From assembly GCA_035574235.1 (NCBI GenBank), contig DATLZA010000070.1, positions 1-38,817 on the forward strand: a stretch of DNA of 38,817 nucleotides, given 5' to 3'. The DNA is from Planctomycetota bacterium. Lineage in GTDB: Bacteria > Planctomycetota > MHYJ01 > JACPRB01. Numbering within the stretch: the first letter of the stretch is position 1; each line of letters starts with the position of its first letter. Both the position numbers and the translations under genes were made by a program. Under the pieces are notes generated by a model. That model saw nothing but the letters and a program-made list of their open reading frames with translations, was not told where the DNA came from and searched no databases. This document shows, one piece after another, positions 20,916 to 29,934 of this stretch.

Positions 20916-22190
20916 TTAAAGCGACGTGAAGGCGGGCGAGGCGGCCTGCAGCTTCTCTTCGAGGCGCCGGAGGCGCTCGCGGGCGGGTCCGTTCCGGCGC
21001 TCGATTTTGCGGCAGGCTTCGAGCACCGTGGCGTGCCCGCGGCCGCCGAAGTGCTCGCCGATCTGGGCGAACGGCCGGCCGAGAAGCTTGCGGGCCAGGT
21101 AGAAGCAGGCCTGCCGCGCCTCGCACGCGGCCCGGGAGCGGCCGGGGGCGTAGATCTCGGTGACCTTGACGCCGAAGGTTTCGGCGGCGGCGCGGACGAT
21201 GTCCGTGTACGTGAGCCCGAGGCTCCACTCGTTGAGGAACTCGGAGGCGACCGCCCGGGCGGCCGCCGGAGAGGGCGGATCGATCTCGAGAAGCCGCCGC
21301 AGGCAGCGGAGCTGATCGGCGTAGCTCGTGCGGACGAGGGACGCCAGGACCTCGAGCGCGGCGTCCGGGACTCCCCGGGGGGCGCGGCGCCGGAGGATCG
21401 CCAGGCCGGTGGCGGGGTCGGGGCGTTCGAGGACGGCTTCCTCGGCGCTCCGGAGGCGGGCGCGGAGGGGGCGGGCGAAACCCTCGAGGGCCCGGACAGG
21501 ACGGTCGCTCGTGAGAACGGCCCGGGCGCCGCGATCGGAGAGGGCTCCCAGGACGTCGGCGAGGGCGGCCTGGGCGGCCTCCTTGCCGGCCAGGAGGTGG
21601 ACGTCGTCGAAGAGGAGGGCGCCGGCCGTTCGGCATTTGGCCAGGAACGCCCGGAGGTGGTCGCGGTGGTAGGCCCACTGGAAGTGGCGGACGAACTGCT
21701 CGCCGGTGAAGTGAAGGGCCGGGCGGACGGTCAGTTCGCGGGCGACGGCGCGGAGAAGGTGGGTTTTCCCGAGCCCCGGGCCGCCGTGGAGGAAGAGGAG
21801 CGCGGGGGCGCGGGGGCCGCCGCGGGCGAAGGCGCGCGCGGCCTCCAGGGCCATGCGGTTGCCGGGGCCGGCGACGAAGGAGGCGAAGGTGCCGTCGGCG
21901 GGGGCGTCCTCGTCCGGCGGGGGGGAAAGCGGAAAGGAAGCCCGCTCCACCTGGAAGCGGACGCGGACCTTGCGGTTGGTGACGCGTTGGGCGGCCTGGG
22001 TGACGAGGTCCTTGAGCAGGGCTTCCACTTTGTCGCGCGCGTCCGTCGTGGAGAAGTGGAAGGTGAAAAGGTCCTCGTCCAGAAGGGCGGGGCGGGCGTG
22101 GCGGATCCAGCAGGCGTAGCGCTCGGGTCCCGCGCGGCGGAGGATCTCGGCGTTCAGGCGGCGCCAGATGTCGTAGAGCGGCCCCTTCAT
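20916..22190 (-). CDS. Divergent DnaA homologue
   Basis: The 424-residue product has all DnaA domains: domain I (LYDIWRRLNAEIL, CWIRHARP), a short acidic/Pro linker (about 85-105), AAA+ domain with Walker A GGPGLGKT (136-143), Walker B ALLFDD (191-196), sensor I LTSD, and a domain IV helix-turn-helix (331-397) with GRSRAACEARQ and GGRGHATVLEACRKIE. Several normally invariant sites are lost. The box VII segment with the arginine finger (RxSRFxWGL) reads RPLRARLRSAEE; sensor II (LEGALNR) reads ADQLRCLRR; the signature GRDHTTV reads GRGHATV, losing the Asp and one Thr that contact the DnaA box. It may be the sole initiator of a divergent lineage or a paralogue with a regulatory role. The ATG at 22190 fits domain I; ATG 22220 adds ten residues. 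Confidence 0.82.
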   Translation of the reverse strand: MKGPLYDIWRRLNAEILRRAGPERYACWIRHARPALLDEDLFTFHFSTTDARDKVEALLKDLVTQAAQRVTNRKVRVRFQVERASFPLSPPPDEDAPADGTFASFVAGPGNRMALEAARAFARGGPRAPALLFLHGGPGLGKTHLLRAVARELTVRPALHFTGEQFVRHFQWAYHRDHLRAFLAKCRTAGALLFDDVHLLAGKEAAQAALADVLGALSDRGARAVLTSDRPVRALEGFARPLRARLRSAEEAVLERPDPATGLAILRRRAPRGVPDAALEVLASLVRTSYADQLRCLRRLLEIDPPSPAAARAVASEFLNEWSLGLTYTDIVRAAAETFGVKVTEIYAPGRSRAACEARQACFYLARKLLGRPFAQIGEHFGGRGHATVLEACRKIERRNGPARERLRRLEEKLQAASPAFTSL

Positions 22191-22274
22191 CGCTGGACGG
22201 CGGACGGAGGGCGACCGCATCGGAGGACGGTCGGGGGTTCCCCCTCTCCGGCGGCGTTCCTCTCTCCCGGGGGA

Positions 22275-22302
22275 AGTATACCACCGGGAGCCGGCGGGTC
22301 AA
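22275..22302 (-). promoter_or_regulatory. Promoter for the dnaA-like gene
   Basis: On the minus strand, TTGACC (22297-22302), a 16 nt spacer, and TATACT (22275-22280). The -35 box overlaps the fabF stop codon. Predicted start about 22268, giving a 48-78 nt leader depending on the start codon chosen. Confidence 0.65.
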
Positions 22303-23543
22303 CGAGGGGGCCGACCGACGACGATGGCGGAGTTGTGGCCTCCGAAGCCCAGGGAGTTCGACATGGCGTACTCGACGGCCACGCGGCGCTTTTCGTTGGG
22401 CACGTAGTCGAGGTCGCACTCCGGGTCGGGGGTTTCGTAGTTGATGGTGGGGTGGACGACGCCGTCGCGGATGGAAAGAACGGTGGCCACGAGTTCCGCG
22501 GCGGCGGCGGCTCCGAGGAGATGGCCGATCATGGACTTCGTCGAGCTGATGGGGATCTTGCGGGCGCGTTCGCCGAACGTCTTCTTGATGGCGGCGGTTT
22601 CGATCTTGTCGTTGAGGGGCGTGGAGGTCCCGTGGGCGTTGATGTAGGAGATCTGCTCGGGGCGGAGTCCGGCGTCCTTGAGGGCCAGTTCCATGGCCTT
22701 GGCGCCTCCGGAGCCGTCGGGGTCCGGGGCGGTGATGTGGTACGCGTCGTCGGTGTTGCCGATGCCGAGGACCTCGGCGTAGATCCGGGCGCCGCGGGCG
22801 CGGGCGTGTTCGAGCTTCTCGAAGACGAGGATGGCGGCGCCCTCGCCCAGGACGAACCCGTCCCGGTTCTTGTCGAAGGGGCGGGAGGCCTTCTCGGGCG
22901 CGTCGTTGCGGCTGGACAGGGCCCCCATGTTGGCGAAGCCGGAGAGGGACAGGTACGTCAGCGCCGCCTCGGTGCCGCCCGTGAGCATGACGTCCGCGTC
23001 GCCGTACTGGATCGTGCGGAAGGCGGTTCCCATGGCGTGGTTGGCCGACGCGCAGGCGGAGGCCACGCCCCAGTTGGGGCCGCCGAGCCCGAAGAAGATG
23101 GCGACGTTCCCCGCGGCGGCGTTAAGCATCATTTTGGGGACGAAGAAGGGGCTCGTCCGGGAGGGCCCTTTCTCCATGTACCGGCGGTGCTGGTCCTGAA
23201 GCTCGTGGAGGCCGCCGATGCCGCTGGCGACGATAGCGCCGCAGCGCCAGCGATCGAGCTTGGCGAAGTCCAGGCCCGCGTCCTTGACCGCCTGCCGCGC
23301 CGCCGCCAGGGCGTACTGTGAGAAGGGGTCCATCCGCTTGGCCTCCTTCTCGTCGATGTAGTCGGCCGGGTTGAAGTTCTTCACCTCGCAGCCGATGGTG
23401 ACGGTGTGTCCGGAGGTGTCGAACTTGGAGATCTTGGCGGCGCCGCTCTTGCCGGACAGAAGCGCGTTCCAGTAGGTGTCGACATCGTTCCCGACCGGCG
23501 TGATGACGCCGAGGCCGGTGATGACGACCCTACTTCTTGTCAC
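22299..23543 (-). CDS. fabF: Beta-ketoacyl-ACP synthase II
   Basis: The 414-residue thiolase-fold condensing enzyme opens [15 protein letters not shown] and has the catalytic triad C164 ([10 protein letters not shown]), H304 ([11 protein letters not shown]) and H341 with K336 ([13 protein letters not shown]), and the glycine-rich [11 protein letters not shown] near the C terminus. FabF elongates acyl-ACP with malonyl-ACP. It starts at a GTG that lies inside the last codons of acpP (14 nt overlap), so acpP and fabF are translationally coupled and share the acpP promoter. Length is standard. Confidence 0.96.
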
Positions 23544-23787
23544 GGACGTTGTCCTCGATGTACTTGATGGCGTCGCCCACCGTCTGGATCTTCTCGGCGG
23601 CGTCGTCCGGGATCGACAGATCGAACGCGTCCTCGATCTCCATGACGAGCTCCACCTGGTCCAGCGAGTCGGCGCCCAGGTCGTTGACGAACGACGAATT
23701 GCGGGTGATCTTGTCCTTGGCCACGCTCAGCTGCTTGGACACGATGTCGATGACCTTGCTTTCGATCTCCGCCGTGGTCAACGCCAT
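23530..23787 (-). CDS. acpP: Acyl carrier protein
   Basis: The 85-residue acidic protein has the ACP four-helix pattern and the phosphopantetheine attachment serine in [13 protein letters not shown] (Ser41). It carries growing acyl chains for FabD, FabF, FabG and FabH. The ATG at 23787 has a strong GGGAGGA site about 4-5 nt upstream, so the longer in-frame ORF to 23865 is rejected. It has its own promoter and overlaps fabF. Here acpP-fabF is separated by about 8 kb from the rpmF-plsX-fabH-fabD-fabG cluster with which it is commonly contiguous. Confidence 0.97.
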
Positions 23788-23836
23788 AGATCCTCCCAAA
23801 AACGTAGATTCGCCAGGGCGTCGGTGATGGGCGGCT

Positions 23837-23865
23837 AGTATAGGGACCGGGTCCGGCCAATTCAA
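23837..23865 (-). promoter_or_regulatory. Promoter for acpP-fabF
   Basis: On the minus strand, TTGAAT (23860-23865), a 17 nt spacer and TATACT (23837-23842). Predicted start about 23830, a 43 nt leader with a good ribosome site. Confidence 0.65.
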
Positions 23866-23877
23866 GTCTAATTCAAG
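23859..23877. repeat. Direct repeat AATTCAAG x2 at the acpP -35 region
   Basis: AATTCAAG occurs at 23859-23866 and again at 23870-23877, offset by 11 bp (about one helical turn). The first copy covers the -35 box of the acpP promoter and the second lies just upstream across the mce stop codon. It is a plausible operator or upstream element; no cognate regulator is visible. Confidence 0.45.
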
Positions 23878-24286
23878 CCTCGGGAGGAGGCCCCGCCAGC
23901 TCGACGAGCACCCCGAAGGCGTCCCGCGGCCGCAGGAAGTTCACCCGCCGGCCGCCCGCCCCCCGTCGCGGGGCGTCCCACACCGGCTCGTACCCGCGCG
24001 CCCGAAGTTCCCGCGTCGCCTCCTCCACGTCCTCCACCTCGAAGCAGACGTGATGGAACCCCTCCCCGCGGGAAGCGAGGAACTTGGAAATCACCTCCTC
24101 GCCCGGAAGGGGCTCCAGAAGCTCCAGGACCGACTCTCCCGCCCGCACCTTGACGACCTTCAGGCGCATGTCGGCAAGCGTCTCCCGCGCCACGACCGGA
24201 AGCCCCAGGACGTCTCCGTAAAACGCGGCCGCCCGCTCCGCCGAACGGCAGGCGATCCCCAGGTGTTCGATCTTGCGGATCTTCAC
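23873..24286 (-). CDS. mce: Methylmalonyl-CoA epimerase
   Basis: The 137-residue VOC-fold protein has KIEHLGIAC with metal ligand H8, [23 protein letters not shown] with H79, and the final metal-binding glutamate in GVLVELAGP (E129). It interconverts (S)- and (R)-methylmalonyl-CoA. The start is a GTG overlapping the stop of the preceding membrane-protein gene (GTGA), with GGGAGGGG directly upstream; the longer ORF is rejected. Context is decisive: carboxylase and mutase genes lie upstream on the same strand. Confidence 0.93.
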
Positions 24287-24792
24287 GGCCCCTCCCTTCG
24301 AAGCGCCTCTTCCTCGAAGGCGGCGAAAATCCGCTCCAGCGTCTCCCGGGGCGCCCGCAGCGGCCCCAGGAACGGAACCCACAGGGCCACCGTTCGCGCC
24401 AGGAGGAGGTGCCGCCCCGTCCGGGTCAGATGGATCGCATTTCCCTTGGGTTTCAGCCGGAATCCGAAATGCCGCCCCTGCGGAATCTCGGGAAGCGATT
24501 CCTTGGAGGGAAGAACCACGACCTGGACGGTGGCCCCCTCCGCGAGGTATCGGCGCACGACCAGCCGGTCGAGCGGCGGGGTCTCGAAGAGCGGCCGGGC
24601 GTCGGCGAAGAGAAGCGCCCGCGCGGGCTCGGCGTCCACCGTCTGAAGCTGCGCCTGAAGCCCCGCCGCCCGCCAGGCACGCAGCCAGGGGTCGCCGTCC
24701 CCGGAGACGTTGCGCTCGACGGCGGCGAACGCGCCATAGAAGAGACCCGCCAGAGCCAGACCCGAAAGCGCGATGCCCGCCAGAGGCCTCAT
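24283..24792 (-). CDS. Hypothetical membrane-anchored protein between mcm and mce
   Basis: The 169-residue product starts MRPLAGIALSGLALAGLFYGAF, one N-terminal membrane helix or uncleaved signal, followed by a soluble domain of about 140 residues with alternating strands (LQTVDAEPARALLFADARPLF, VVRRYLAEGATVQVVVLPS). I recognise no family for certain. There is no DxHxxG, so it is not the missing cobalamin-binding subunit of the mutase. Its ATG overlaps the mutase stop (ATGA) and its stop overlaps the mce GTG (GTGA), so it is locked into the propionyl-CoA operon. A role in that pathway or simple hitchhiking cannot be separated from sequence alone. Confidence 0.75.
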   Translation of the reverse strand: MRPLAGIALSGLALAGLFYGAFAAVERNVSGDGDPWLRAWRAAGLQAQLQTVDAEPARALLFADARPLFETPPLDRLVVRRYLAEGATVQVVVLPSKESLPEIPQGRHFGFRLKPKGNAIHLTRTGRHLLLARTVALWVPFLGPLRAPRETLERIFAAFEEEALRREGP

Positions 24793-26291
24793 CCCGGGCC
24801 CTCCTGCGGCTGGAAGCGTCCGTACCGTTCCTCGAGCGCCCGGCAGATCTCTCCCAGCGTCGCCCGCGCCCGCACGGCGTCGAAAACCGCCGGAACGAGA
24901 TTTTCCTCCCGTTCCGCCGCCCGGCGGACCGCGTCGAGCGCCCGCGCCGCCGCGGCCCCGTCCCGCGCGGCCTTCCGCCGCGCCACGTCCCGGGCCCGTT
25001 CTTCCTCCACCCGCGGGTCCACCTTGAGCGTGCGCACCGCCCGCGGCGGCTCGGGCTCCTGATAGCGGTTCACCCCCACGATCACCCGCTCGCCGCGCTC
25101 GACCCGCCGCTGATCCTCGAGGGCGCTCTTCTCGATCTCCCGGCGCTCGTAGGCGAGGGCCTCCACCGCTCCGCCGCGCGACTCGATCTCGGCGATCAGG
25201 CGCCGGGCTTCGGCCTCCAGGCGGTCCGTTTCCGCCTCCACGTGCCAGGCCCCTCCCAGGGGATCGGCCGCGTCCCGCAGGCCCGTTTCGTGCGCGAGAA
25301 TCTGCTGCGTGCGGAGCGCGAGTTTCGCCGCCTCCTCCGTGGGAAGCGCCAGAGCCTCGTCCATGGCGTTGGTGTGCAGCGACTGGGCGCCCCCCAGGAC
25401 GGCCGCCAGCGCCTGATAGGTCACGCGGACCACGTTGTTGGCCGGCTGCTGGGCCGTGAGCGTGGATCCGGCGGTCTGCGCGTGGAAGCGCAGCATCTGC
25501 GCCCGCGGGTCCTTCGCGCCGAAGCGGTCCCGCATGAGGTGCGCCCACAGACGCCGCGCCGCGCGGAACTTGGCGACCTCCTCCAGAAAGTGGTTGTGGA
25601 CGTTGAAGAAGAAACTCACGCGCCTTCCGACCGTGTCCGGATCGAGCCCGCGCCGGAGCGCCGCCTCCACGTAGGCCGCCCCGTGGGCGAGCGTGAACCC
25701 CAGCTCCTGGGCCGCCGTGGCCCCGGCTTCCCGGATGTGGTAGCCGGAAACGCTGATGAAGTTCCACGCGGGCAGGTGCCGGCAGCAGTGTTCGATCACG
25801 TCCACGGCGATCTTCATCGAGGGCCGCGGGGGATAGATGTAGCAGCCCCGCGCCACGAACTCCTTGAGGATGTCGTTCTGGACCGTGCCGCCGAGCTTCT
25901 CGAACGGCACCCCCCGGCGTTCCGCCACCGCCATGTGGAGGGCCAGAAGAACGATCGCCGTCGCGTTGATCGTCATGGAGACCGTGACCCGGTCCAGGGG
26001 AATGTCGCGGAAGAGCGTCTCCATGTCGTCGATCGAGGCGATGGAAACGCCCGCGCGGCCCACTTCGCCGCGGGCCATGGGGTCCCCCGGGTCGTAGCCC
26101 ATCTGCGTGGGCAGGTCGAAGGCCACGGAGAGGCCCGTCTGGCCGTGCTCGAGGAGATACTTGTACCGGCGGTTGGTTTCCTCCGCGGTGGCGTACCCCG
26201 CGTATTGCCGGAACGTCCAGGGACGATCCGCGTACATCCGGGGGTGGATGCCCCGCGTGAACGGGAACTCGCCCGGCCGCGACGCGTCCAT
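24789..26291 (-). CDS. Methylmalonyl-CoA mutase, catalytic (large) subunit without B12 domain
   Basis: The 500-residue product covers the TIM-barrel catalytic domain: GEFPFTRGIHPRMYADRPWTFRQYAG, then YKYLLEHGQTGLSVAFDLPTQMGYD, SMTINATA, GTVQNDILKE, ISVSGYHIREAGA, and AQTAGSTLTAQQPANNVVR. The enzyme converts (R)-methylmalonyl-CoA to succinyl-CoA with adenosylcobalamin. No cobalamin-binding domain (DxHxxG) follows, so this is the two-subunit form and the small subunit must be encoded elsewhere. The ATG at 26291 leaves only a few residues before GEFPFTRG, shorter than many homologues; upstream sequence in frame does not look like mutase. A TAGAAT box lies directly before the ATG. The ATGA overlap links it to the next gene. 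Confidence 0.93.
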   Translation of the reverse strand: MDASRPGEFPFTRGIHPRMYADRPWTFRQYAGYATAEETNRRYKYLLEHGQTGLSVAFDLPTQMGYDPGDPMARGEVGRAGVSIASIDDMETLFRDIPLDRVTVSMTINATAIVLLALHMAVAERRGVPFEKLGGTVQNDILKEFVARGCYIYPPRPSMKIAVDVIEHCCRHLPAWNFISVSGYHIREAGATAAQELGFTLAHGAAYVEAALRRGLDPDTVGRRVSFFFNVHNHFLEEVAKFRAARRLWAHLMRDRFGAKDPRAQMLRFHAQTAGSTLTAQQPANNVVRVTYQALAAVLGGAQSLHTNAMDEALALPTEEAAKLALRTQQILAHETGLRDAADPLGGAWHVEAETDRLEAEARRLIAEIESRGGAVEALAYERREIEKSALEDQRRVERGERVIVGVNRYQEPEPPRAVRTLKVDPRVEEERARDVARRKAARDGAAAARALDAVRRAAEREENLVPAVFDAVRARATLGEICRALEERYGRFQPQEGPG

Positions 26292-26298
26292 GATCGGA

Positions 26299-26304
26299 AT
26301 TCTA
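26299..26304 (-). promoter_or_regulatory. Putative -10 box directly before the mutase gene
   Basis: TAGAAT on the minus strand, 7 nt before the ATG at 26291; the predicted start would be base 26292. No convincing -35 box is seen. It resembles the short-leader arrangement of other genes in the window, but the gene may also be read through from the biotin carrier gene 44 nt upstream. Confidence 0.35.
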
Positions 26305-26335
26305 TCAAAAGGGCATCGCGGGGTCGCGGCGCCGC

Positions 26336-26845
26336 TTACTCCACCACGAAGAGAAGCTGGTCCTTTTCGACGGGTTGGCCGGCCCGCACGGCCACCTCCC
26401 GGAGGACGCCGTCGCGCGGGGCCGGGATCTCGTTTTCGAGCTTCATCGCGTCCAGGCAAAGAACCGGCTGATCCTTTCGCACCGCGTCTCCCGGCTCGAC
26501 GAGAATCCGGGTGACCAGCCCCGGGATGGGCGCCCGCACCTCCGCGGCCCGCCGGGTCCCCCGCGCCGCCGCGGCGAGCGTCTCGGCGGGAACGGGCGCC
26601 CCGGCGCCGGCCAGCTCCACGTCGAACGGGACTCCCTCCAGGAGCACGCGCCCGCCGCCCCCCTCCCGCGGCTCCCATCCGAAGTCCACCCGCCGCTCCC
26701 CGAGGAGCGCCCGGACGAGGCCCGGACCGCCCTTTTCCAGGGAGACCTCCCGTTCGCGGTTCCCGGAGCGCACGATGTACCGGTCGCCCTCGGCGCGGAC
26801 TTCGATCTCGAACTCCCGGTCCCCCACCCGCGCGCGGAACTTCAC
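26336..26845 (-). CDS. Biotin carboxyl carrier subunit of propionyl/acyl-CoA carboxylase
   Basis: The 169-residue product ends in a biotinyl domain with DAMKLENEI, the biotin-accepting lysine being K135, flanked by RAPIPGLVTRILVEPGD and PVEKDQLLFVVE. The first 95 residues are a strand-rich region (KFRARVGDREFEIEVRAE) like the linker or BT-type domain of acyl-CoA carboxylase alpha chains. It starts at a GTG overlapping the biotin carboxylase stop (GTGA), so the alpha chain, fused in many organisms, is split here into two coupled genes. Confidence 0.9.
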   Translation of the reverse strand: MKFRARVGDREFEIEVRAEGDRYIVRSGNREREVSLEKGGPGLVRALLGERRVDFGWEPREGGGGRVLLEGVPFDVELAGAGAPVPAETLAAAARGTRRAAEVRAPIPGLVTRILVEPGDAVRKDQPVLCLDAMKLENEIPAPRDGVLREVAVRAGQPVEKDQLLFVVE

Positions 26846-28332
26846 GTTCCGTTCTCCCGGAAGGCGAGTTTCCACGCCGAGAGGGAGCGGTCGCGGCCGT
26901 CCGCCGAGGGCGGCGGCGCCGCCGCCGCCGCGCGGCGGGCGCATTCGAGGACGGCGGCCAGACAGGCCGCGTCCTCCGCGCGGTCCGCGGTTTCCTCGTC
27001 CGGCGGGAACTCCTCCTCGACGAAGCGCGTGTGGATCCGGCCGGAGCGGAAGCGCGGGTCGTCCAGAAGCCGGCGGTGGAAGGGCACGGTGGTCGGCACG
27101 CCCGTCACGACGAACTCGTCCAGCGCGCGGCGGGCCCGCGCCCGGGCGGCCTCCCGATCGGGACCCCAGCAGACGAGTTTGGCCAGGAGCGAATCGTAGT
27201 AGACGGGGACCGGCATTCCCGGCGCCAGGTCCGCGTCCACCCGCACGAAGGGCCCGGCCGGGAGGCGCACGGACGTGACCGTTCCGGTCGCCGGCGCGAA
27301 GCGGCGCGCGGGATCCTCCGCGCAGATCCGCATCTCGATCGCGTGGCCGCGCCGGGGAACCTCCTCGAGCGGGACGGCCTCTCCCGCCGCGATCCGGATC
27401 TGCAGGGCCACGAGATCCAGCCCCGTGATCATCTCCGTGACGGGATGCTCCACCTGAAGGCGGGCGTTGACCTCGAGGAAGTAGAAGCGGCCGTCCTCGT
27501 CGAGGAGGAATTCGCAGGTGCCGGCGTTCTCGTAGCCGGCGCTCCGGGCCAGCTCGCAGGCGGTCCGGCCCATGCGCTCCCGCAGGGCGGCGTCCACGGC
27601 GGGAGAGGGGCTTTCTTCCAGGAGCTTCTGATGGCGGCGCTGGATGGAGCAGTCGCGTTCTCCCAGGTGGACGACGCGGCCGCGGCCGTCGCCGAAGATC
27701 TGGATTTCCACGTGGCGCGGGCGCGGGACGTAGCGTTCGAGGAAGATCGTGGGGTCGCCGAAGGACTGAGCGGCCTCGCGCGAGGCTTCGCGGAGGGACC
27801 GGGCCAGGTCGGCTTCCTCGCGCACGACGCGCATGCCTTTGCCGCCGCCCCCTCCGGCGGCCTTGAGGAGGATGGGGTATCCGTGGCGGGCGGCGAACGC
27901 GCGCGCGCGGGATTCGTCGGCGGGTTCCGACAGGCCGGGCACGACGGGGATGCCGAGGGCCTCGGCGGCGCGGCGGGCGGCGATCTTGTTTCCCAGCGCG
28001 CGCAGGGCATGAGGCTTCGGACCGATGAAGACGAGTCCCGCGGCGGCGCACGCCTCGGCGAAGTCGGCGTTCTCGGACAGGAAGCCGTATCCCGGATGGA
28101 CGGCCTGGGCGCCCGAGCGGCGGGCGATTTCGAGGAGGGCGTCGAGGCGCAGGTAGCTTTCCCGGGAAGGCGGCGGCCCGAGGCGGTAGGCTTCGTCGGC
28201 CTGGGCGACATAGCCGGCCCAGCGGTCCGCGTCGCTGTAGACCGCGACCGTGCGGATGCCCAGCTCCCGGCACGTCCGGATCACCCGCAGGGCGATTTCG
28301 CCCCGGTTGGCCACGAGGATTTTGCGGAACAC
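26842..28332 (-). CDS. Biotin carboxylase subunit (acyl-CoA carboxylase alpha)
   Basis: The 496-residue ATP-grasp enzyme opens FRKILVANRGEIALRVIRTC, with VHPGYGFLSEN, the glycine-rich ATP loop LKAAGGGGGKGMR, ERDCSIQRRHQKLLEE, and the metal/catalytic motif FLEVNARLQVEHPVTE. It carboxylates biotin on the carrier protein using bicarbonate and ATP. Given the downstream carrier, mutase and epimerase and the upstream carboxyltransferase, the complete enzyme is most likely a propionyl-CoA carboxylase. After about residue 450 a non-conserved Ala/Pro-rich tail follows. It starts at a GTG about 5 nt after a predicted transcription start, with no Shine-Dalgarno sequence. Confidence 0.95.
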   Translation of the reverse strand: MFRKILVANRGEIALRVIRTCRELGIRTVAVYSDADRWAGYVAQADEAYRLGPPPSRESYLRLDALLEIARRSGAQAVHPGYGFLSENADFAEACAAAGLVFIGPKPHALRALGNKIAARRAAEALGIPVVPGLSEPADESRARAFAARHGYPILLKAAGGGGGKGMRVVREEADLARSLREASREAAQSFGDPTIFLERYVPRPRHVEIQIFGDGRGRVVHLGERDCSIQRRHQKLLEESPSPAVDAALRERMGRTACELARSAGYENAGTCEFLLDEDGRFYFLEVNARLQVEHPVTEMITGLDLVALQIRIAAGEAVPLEEVPRRGHAIEMRICAEDPARRFAPATGTVTSVRLPAGPFVRVDADLAPGMPVPVYYDSLLAKLVCWGPDREAARARARRALDEFVVTGVPTTVPFHRRLLDDPRFRSGRIHTRFVEEEFPPDEETADRAEDAACLAAVLECARRAAAAAPPPSADGRDRSLSAWKLAFRENGT

Positions 28333-28343
28333 GGCCGGTCAGG

Positions 28344-28372
28344 ACCCTATCATGCGCCGCCCCGCCGTTCAA
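28344..28372 (-). promoter_or_regulatory. Putative promoter for the biotin carboxylase operon, near-leaderless
   Basis: On the minus strand, TTGAAC (28367-28372), a 17 nt spacer, and TAGGGT (28344-28349). Predicted start 28337, 5 nt before the GTG at 28332. Confidence 0.5.
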
Positions 28373-28386
28373 GCCCGGAGGGATTT

Positions 28387-29934
28387 CTAAAGCGGAATGT
28401 TCCCGTGTTTGCGGGGCGGGTTGCGGTCGCGCTTGGTCCTGAGGAGCGCCAGGGTCCGGATCAGGCGCGGGCGCGTCTCGGCGGGCTCGAGAATGTCGTC
28501 GATGTATCCCCTCTGGGCGGCGAAATAGGGGTTGGCGAACTTCGCCCGGTAGTCCGCGATCAGCGCCTCGCGCGCGGCCCGGGGGTCGGGCGACGCGTCG
28601 ATGTCGTCCTTGAAGATGATGTTGACCGCTCCTTCGGGACCCATGACGGCGATTTCCGCCGTGGGCCAGGCGAAGTTGAAGTCCCCCCGGATGTGCTTGG
28701 AGCTCATGACGTCGTACGCCCCCCCGTAGGCCTTGCGGGTGATCACGGTGATCTTCGGGACGGTGGCCTCGCAGTAGGCGTAGAGGAGCTTCGCCCCGTT
28801 CCGGATGATGCCGCCGTGCTCCTGGGCGACGCCGGGAAGGAACCCGGGGACGTCCTCGAAGGTCACGAGGGGAATGTTGAACGCGTCGCAGAAGCGGATG
28901 AAACGGGCGCCCTTGACGGAGGCGTCGATGTCGAGGCACCCCGCCAGATGGGCCGGCTGCTGCGCGACGATTCCCACGGGGCGGCCGTCGAGGCGGGCGA
29001 ACCCCACGATGAGGTTCCGGGCGAAATCGCGGTGCGTCTCGAAGAAGGAGTCGCGGTCCACCACCGCGGCGATGACCTCCTTCATGTCGTAGGGCTTCTG
29101 AGGGTTCTCCGGGACGATGGAGTTCAGGCGCGGCTCGCGCCGGGCGGGGTCGTCCGCAGGCGGGACGGCCGGCGGCTCCTCGAGGTTGTTCGAGGGCAGG
29201 TACGAGAGGAGTCTCCGGATGGAGCGGAAGCATTCGGGCTCGTCGGCGGCGGCGAAGTGGGCCACGCCGCTTTTCTCGTTGTGCACCGCGGCGCCTCCGA
29301 GTTCCTCGAAGGTCACCTGCTCGCGGGTGACCTCCTTGATCACGTTCGGCCCGGTCACGAACATGTAGCTCGTCCCGCGGACCATGAAGACGAAGTCGGT
29401 GATCGCCGGAGAGTAGACGGCGCCGCCGGCGCAGGGGCCGAGCACCGCCGAGATCTGCGGGATGACGCCGCTGGCCAGGGTATTGCGCAGGAAGATCTCG
29501 GCGTATCCCCCCAGGGCGTCCACCCCTTCCTGAATCCGGGCGCCGCCGGAGTCGTTCAGACCCACGACCGGAATGCCGAGCTTGAGGGCCAGATCCATGA
29601 TCTTGCAGATTTTCCGCGCATGGGCCAGGCCGAGCGAGCCGCCCAGGACGGTGAAATCCTGCGCGAAAACGGCGACCGGACGGCCGTCGATGCGGCCGAA
29701 GCCGGTGACCACGCCGTCGCCGGGAAACTTCCGGCGCTCCATGCCGAAGTCGGTGCAGGAGTGTTCGACAAAGGCGTCGATCTCGTCGAACGAGCCTTCG
29801 TCCAGGAGGAGGTTCAGCCGCTCGCGCGCCGTAAGCTTGCCGGCGGCGTGCTGGCGGGCGGCCTTCTCCGGTCCGCCGCCTTCGAGGGCCTGACGACGCC
29901 GCTCACGCAGCCGGGAAAGGGGGTCGTCGGCCAT
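28387..29934 (-). CDS. Acyl-CoA carboxylase carboxyltransferase (propionyl-CoA carboxylase beta)
   Basis: The 515-residue product has the two crotonase-like halves of PCC beta/Mmd[50 protein letters not shown], the oxyanion [15 protein letters not shown], and in the C half [44 protein letters not shown] and [10 protein letters not shown]. It transfers CO2 from carboxybiotin to an acyl-CoA. Propionyl-CoA is the likely substrate because mutase and epimerase genes follow; no decarboxylase membrane subunit is present, arguing against a sodium-pump decarboxylase. The ATG at 29934 coincides with the predicted transcription start. Confidence 0.93.

Follow-up and report, generated by a model that had tools for sequence, protein, structure and literature searches.

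A divergent DnaA paralogue in Planctomycetota with a probable accessory or regulatory role in replication

DnaA, which starts chromosome replication, is usually regarded as a single-copy, universal initiator, and a genome that encodes a second, divergent DnaA raises the question of what that second protein does. We addressed this question for a gene, here called D2, that lies within a 38.8-kb stretch of a Planctomycetota assembly (38,817 nucleotides, referred to as the window). The features discussed are listed below by their positions in the window.

20916..22220, minus strand: divergent dnaA paralogue D2, an open frame of 434 amino acids with Pfam Bac_DnaA and Bac_DnaA_C domains; the second of the genome's two DnaA copies
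21942..22184, minus strand: D2 domain I (approximately residues 13 to 93), retaining W6 and W25 of E. coli DnaA; 53% identity to the copy of genome G001
21225..21929, minus strand: D2 AAA+ domain III (residues 98 to 332), best matched among solved structures by DnaA domain III (2z4r_A, Z 26.8; 8bv3_A, Z 26.1)
21762..21785, minus strand: Walker A GGPGLGKT, intact by sequence
21600..21617, minus strand: Walker B LLFDDV, intact by sequence
21456..21458, minus strand: R255, aligned with the E. coli arginine finger R285, kept
21318..21320, minus strand: A301, aligned with E. coli sensor II R334, arginine lost
20997..21209, minus strand: D2 DNA-binding domain IV (residues 338 to 408), from Pfam match, AlphaFold model and structure comparison
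21024..21044, minus strand: signature GRGHATV (E. coli GRDHTTV), from sequence and alignment
22275..22302, minus strand: promoter TTGACC-16-TATACT with TGn extension; the same TGnTATACT at spacing 16 lies upstream of the G001 and G004 copies
22299..23543, minus strand: fabF-type ketoacyl synthase gene, conserved upstream neighbor of D2
23530..23865, minus strand: acpP (acyl carrier protein) inside this frame, by homology to acpP frames beside fabF in G001, G010 and G018

DnaA architecture of D2 and a canonical copy in the same genome

The D2 frame was complete and stop-free, and its product exceeded the Pfam cut-offs for both Bac_DnaA (96 bits against 23; E = 4e-27) and Bac_DnaA_C (71.3 bits against 31.5; E = 7e-20), which bears out the original prediction of a DnaA homologue. 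That prediction had also held that domain I and the helix-turn-helix remain. Consistent with this claim, W6 and W25 could be aligned, and an AlphaFold model built from 21 sequences (mean pLDDT, 85) contained domain I, the AAA+ domain and the helix-turn-helix. When the model was compared with solved structures, the top matches were DnaA proteins (8btg, 1l8q and 2hcb; Z 24 to 27), identifying a DnaA fold with AAA+ domain plus domain IV. In contrast, D2 scored only 213.3 bits against the NCBI initiator equivalog TIGR00362, for which the curated cut-off is 343.9.

The DnaA DNA-binding domain had exactly two matches in the whole assembly (4.06 Mb, 99% complete, 4.66% estimated contamination). The other copy, on contig C151, was canonical in sequence (LLSRF, IRELEGAL and GGKDHTTM) and, as a control for D2, scored 488.3 bits against TIGR00362. 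The canonical dnaA for which a genome search had been proposed is thus present, but it has no dnaN beside it on its contig; the same applies to the window's own family.

Given the estimated contamination of the assembly, we considered whether D2 might derive from a contaminant contig or a sequencing error. Tetranucleotide usage correlated with a sample of the genome at 0.955 for the D2 contig, relative to 0.94 for the contig carrying canonical dnaA, and the fabF adjoining D2 was 75 to 84% identical to that of four other genera of the family. Since both properties fit the genome, and independent assemblies of other genera carry orthologues altered in the same ways, we reject contamination or error as a barely credible source of D2.

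Retained and altered residues

To read individual residues, D2 was placed in an alignment with the E. coli protein and a further 69 DnaA sequences, while the statistics were drawn from a larger set. All the motifs on which the original prediction relied are present, namely, RPLRARLRSAEE, DQLRCLRR, GRGHATV and the intact Walker A and B motifs. The claim of a degenerate box VII and arginine finger was only partly upheld. Proline replaces E. coli R281, and box VII lacks its FxWG segment, but the catalytic arginine is kept as R255, which aligns with E. coli R285 in a column that is invariant across alignment A2. Loss of the arginine finger is thereby ruled out.

Sensor II, in contrast, is degenerate as proposed. 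Its arginine (R334) was present in 52 of 52 canonical rows and is replaced by Ala 301 in D2. In E. coli and Caulobacter DnaA, the same arginine-to-alanine change prevents inactivation and causes over-initiation; Caulobacter DnaA is also a transcription factor, and there the change splits the two roles (PMC3193534). By analogy, D2 would favor a lasting ATP-bound state, and the substitution makes an altered ATP switch plausible. Since 29 of 40 second copies in the phylum retain R334, loss of sensor II is not uniform and is instead a trait of the branch to which the window copy belongs.

The DNA-reading residues were likewise found to be a mixture of altered and conserved positions; we take the contact roles of E. 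coli domain IV residues to be those of the DnaA-box structure. D2 has glycine at D433 and alanine at T435, as the original prediction stated, but it retains R399, R407, Q408, H434 and T436. Position 433 was aspartate in all 41 canonical planctomycete copies and in none of the 40 second copies. The original prediction had taken these residues to imply altered or relaxed DNA recognition. However, a scan for FGG[RK][NSG]H[AST]TV returned 80 loci, half of them adjoining dnaN, with glycine in seven of the latter, and the exact GGRGHATV occurred in five Omnitrophota initiators adjoining dnaN (L076, L077, L079, L081 and L082). The signature alone therefore implies no relaxed binding, and we abandoned this argument. 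GGRGHATV also replaces GGRDHTTV in a further Omnitrophota initiator, L090.

Inheritance of D2 and second DnaA copies across the phylum

TTGACC-16-TATACT at 22302 to 22275 was the sole match in its region (0.0 expected in shuffles). The promoter that had been predicted for D2 is conserved in two other genera: TGnTATACT lies 16 nucleotides from a -35-like hexamer upstream of D2 in the window genome (G000), G001 and G004, the hexamer being weak in G001 (TCGTCA). G004, which belongs to the same family as the window, encodes a full D2 orthologue with 46% identity, and in G001 a D2 fragment ended by the contig edge lies directly downstream of fabF, so that fabF and D2 adjoin in both G000 and G001. 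Family f6, which belongs to the same class, had the order acpP-fabF-amidase-second dnaA; G012 and G014 showed this order too, with the gene cut by contig ends. Upstream of acpP-fabF, the window carries genes for a glyoxalase-type protein (probable methylmalonyl-CoA epimerase), methylmalonyl-CoA mutase and a biotin carrier (23873 to 29233), in an order that is partly common to families f1 and f6.

In two of the five genera in the window's family (G002 and G003), different genes come after acpP-fabF and D2 is missing from the locus, yet both genera keep canonical dnaA. These observations indicate that D2 can be lost, and they argue against its being a lineage-specific initiator, one of the two roles originally proposed.

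A branch with 100/99 support divided the tree. One side (30 rows) held the canonical planctomycete copies along with DnaA from E. coli, Omnitrophota, Clostridia, Spirochaetes, Actinobacteria and others, while a further 39 planctomycete copies lay on the opposite side. The clade containing the window D2 (families f1, f4, f6 and f9) was supported at 99/97. A within-class duplication, modeled by a constraint placing the class's canonical and second copies in one clade, was rejected only marginally (AU P = 0.042), and the age of the D2 clade rests on long branches. The dN/dS ratio was 0.35 to 0.38 for the f6 second copies and 0.16 to 0.25 for the canonical gene; the value of 0.63 for the window/G004 D2 pair is weak evidence either way because dS is near saturation. 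Given the acpP-fabF synteny in two families, the 99/97 clade, the purifying selection on related copies and the promoter shared with two sister genera, D2 is inherited rather than an accident. These sequence comparisons show it to be a paralogue passed on vertically within its class as a separate lineage beside the canonical initiator. Since the same genome also carries canonical dnaA, the other role originally proposed, that of a paralogue with a different function, is supported.

Second copies were widespread. Among 147 Planctomycetota genomes at least 90% complete, 114 had at least two DnaA copies, 31 had one and 2 had none, whereas each of 11 genomes representing other phyla had a single DnaA. 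Five named Planctomycetota had two copies each. G063 and G065, both more than 90% complete, gave zero DnaA matches, and family f49 (G072, G087, G099, G121, G138, G144, G154, G164 and G174) had three to six copies per genome, the maximum being reached by G121 and G174.

In all, 59 genomes have a second copy adjoining the clamp-loader gene holB (seven families) or recG (three families). By coordinates, the second dnaA lies within ~1 kb of holB on the same strand in G025, G027, G029, G037, G040, G046 and G058 and directly before recG in G036, G041 and G044, and Pfam confirmed holB, PSP1 and recG at second-copy loci. Apparent operons of second dnaA and holB (L060, L072 and L201 to L205) continue into PSP1 in the two checked; L061, L067 and L068 directly precede recG.

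Two second copies (L058 and L067) exceed the TIGR00362 cut-off, and both copies in the complete genome G045 fall outside the canonical set, which indicates that second copies are a graded and possibly mixed group. L207 (G056:C751) is a second DnaA that groups with the DnaA of other phyla, perhaps by transfer.

More than one dnaA has been reported in Chlamydiales (PMC2878342), including DnaA1 and DnaA3 of Waddlia, for which binding sites were not obtained (PMC4989314). These proteins share with D2 their occurrence as extra copies in a PVC phylum, but chlamydial DnaA3, which we compare with D2 by description only, is described as confined to Chlamydiae. "Ca. Kuenenia stuttgartiensis," a planctomycete with multiple dnaA genes like the window genome but from a different class, has three, only one of which is beside dnaN-gyrB; the extra genes are mentioned solely in connection with choosing the chromosome start, and the copies were not analyzed (PMC7709395). 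Our search of largely open-access literature found no study of a planctomycete DnaA paralogue. Thus, multiple dnaA genes are known in passing for Kuenenia and Chlamydiales, and the planctomycete second copy appears to be unstudied.

Candidate functions of D2

How D2 compares with known systems narrows its possible roles. A chromosomal initiator binds DnaA boxes, unwinds oriC and loads the helicase. D2 resembles the DnaA initiator family (TIGR00362) in having domain I, the AAA+ domain, the helix-turn-helix, the Walker motifs, the arginine finger, R399, R407, H434 and T436, as well as in its fold (Z 24 to 27). It differs in its score (213 versus 343.9 bits), in having lost the sensor II arginine and the FxWG of box VII, in not lying beside dnaN and in coexisting with a canonical copy elsewhere. 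Nor is D2 the single or main copy, commonly found by dnaN or a DnaA-box cluster, as is typical of an initiator. Hda is essentially domain III alone, with a short N-terminus that carries a clamp-binding motif; working on the loaded clamp, it prompts DnaA to hydrolyze its ATP. Like Hda (TIGR03420), D2 is a DnaA-derived AAA+ paralogue that keeps the arginine finger, and we propose that the two may share a mode of action. Unlike Hda, D2 has domains I and IV, and it scores 65 bits against an Hda cut-off of 194.8 and a Z of 18.9, relative to 26.8 for DnaA. A phage origin was set aside, as matches to helicase-loader families were weak.

D2 probably assists or regulates replication and does not itself start it. 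Our preferred explanation, to which we give an even chance, is that D2 modulates the canonical initiator as an accessory, dispensable paralogue, perhaps by lending an arginine finger as Hda does. Since hydrolysis suffers when DnaA of E. coli or Caulobacter loses the sensor II arginine, D2 is proposed to bind ATP but to switch poorly. It would interact with canonical DnaA, joining or capping its assemblies on DnaA-box-like DNA, where R255 could act in trans on the ATP of a neighbor in Hda-like fashion; D2 might thereby tune initiation, with canonical DnaA as the main initiator. The second copies beside holB or recG in other families point to replication. On the other hand, the N-terminus of D2 has no convincing Hda-type clamp-binding motif, the neighbors of D2 in the window lineage are metabolic (acpP-fabF and PEP mutase) rather than replication genes, the sensor II loss is not uniform, and the age of the clade depends on long branches.

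Those metabolic neighbors would suit a DnaA-derived transcription factor that acts at DnaA-box-like promoter sites, for example in its own region or at fatty-acid genes, without contributing to initiation. The DNA-binding domain is the best-preserved part of D2, and Caulobacter DnaA provides a precedent in which sensor II substitution separates transcription from initiation (PMC3193534). Nevertheless, we regard this role as unlikely, given that the ATP site and arginine finger are kept under constraint, domain I is kept in family f1, other second copies adjoin holB and recG, and no DnaA box with up to one mismatch was found near the D2 gene. The full DnaA architecture, including domain I, would also be expected of a second initiator serving an alternative chromosomal or plasmid origin. 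Our search of the 38.8-kb window for an origin, however, revealed no DnaA-box cluster (one one-mismatch site versus 0.76 expected), and GC skew was weakly patterned with no clear switch at D2. Furthermore, no dnaN lay near any D2 locus, whereas most canonical copies have dnaN nearby. Together with the two genera that lack D2, these results make a second initiator quite improbable.

The absence of D2 from two of five genera could alternatively reflect a decaying duplicate whose function is gone, and D2 does evolve faster than the canonical copy, its versions in two genera of a single family being 45% identical. We nonetheless consider decay very unlikely because dN/dS in f6 is well under 1, open frames and Walker motifs persist in nearly all copies, and the promoter is kept in three genera.

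Extending the accessory role beyond D2, we suggest only tentatively, and consider it rather unlikely, that most Planctomycetota keep a DnaA dedicated to regulation. Such a protein would be an ancient paralogue that forms mixed assemblies with the canonical initiator and plays a role like that of Hda, YabA or datA, and its gene would often be coupled to holB or recG. The second, divergent DnaA found in three quarters of the sampled near-complete Planctomycetota offers a direct way to probe initiation control in bacteria whose cell cycles are unusual and to ask whether duplication can split an initiator into a starter and a regulator. It also calls for caution, since setting the chromosome start at "dnaA" in this phylum may pick the wrong copy. 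In the complete genomes of family f32 (G045, G071, G086, G137, G148 and G173), the sequence begins with a short DnaA copy of ~340 amino acids (contig C1, positions 1 to 960); the one in G045 is highly divergent, so the point chosen as the start of the chromosome may differ from the origin.
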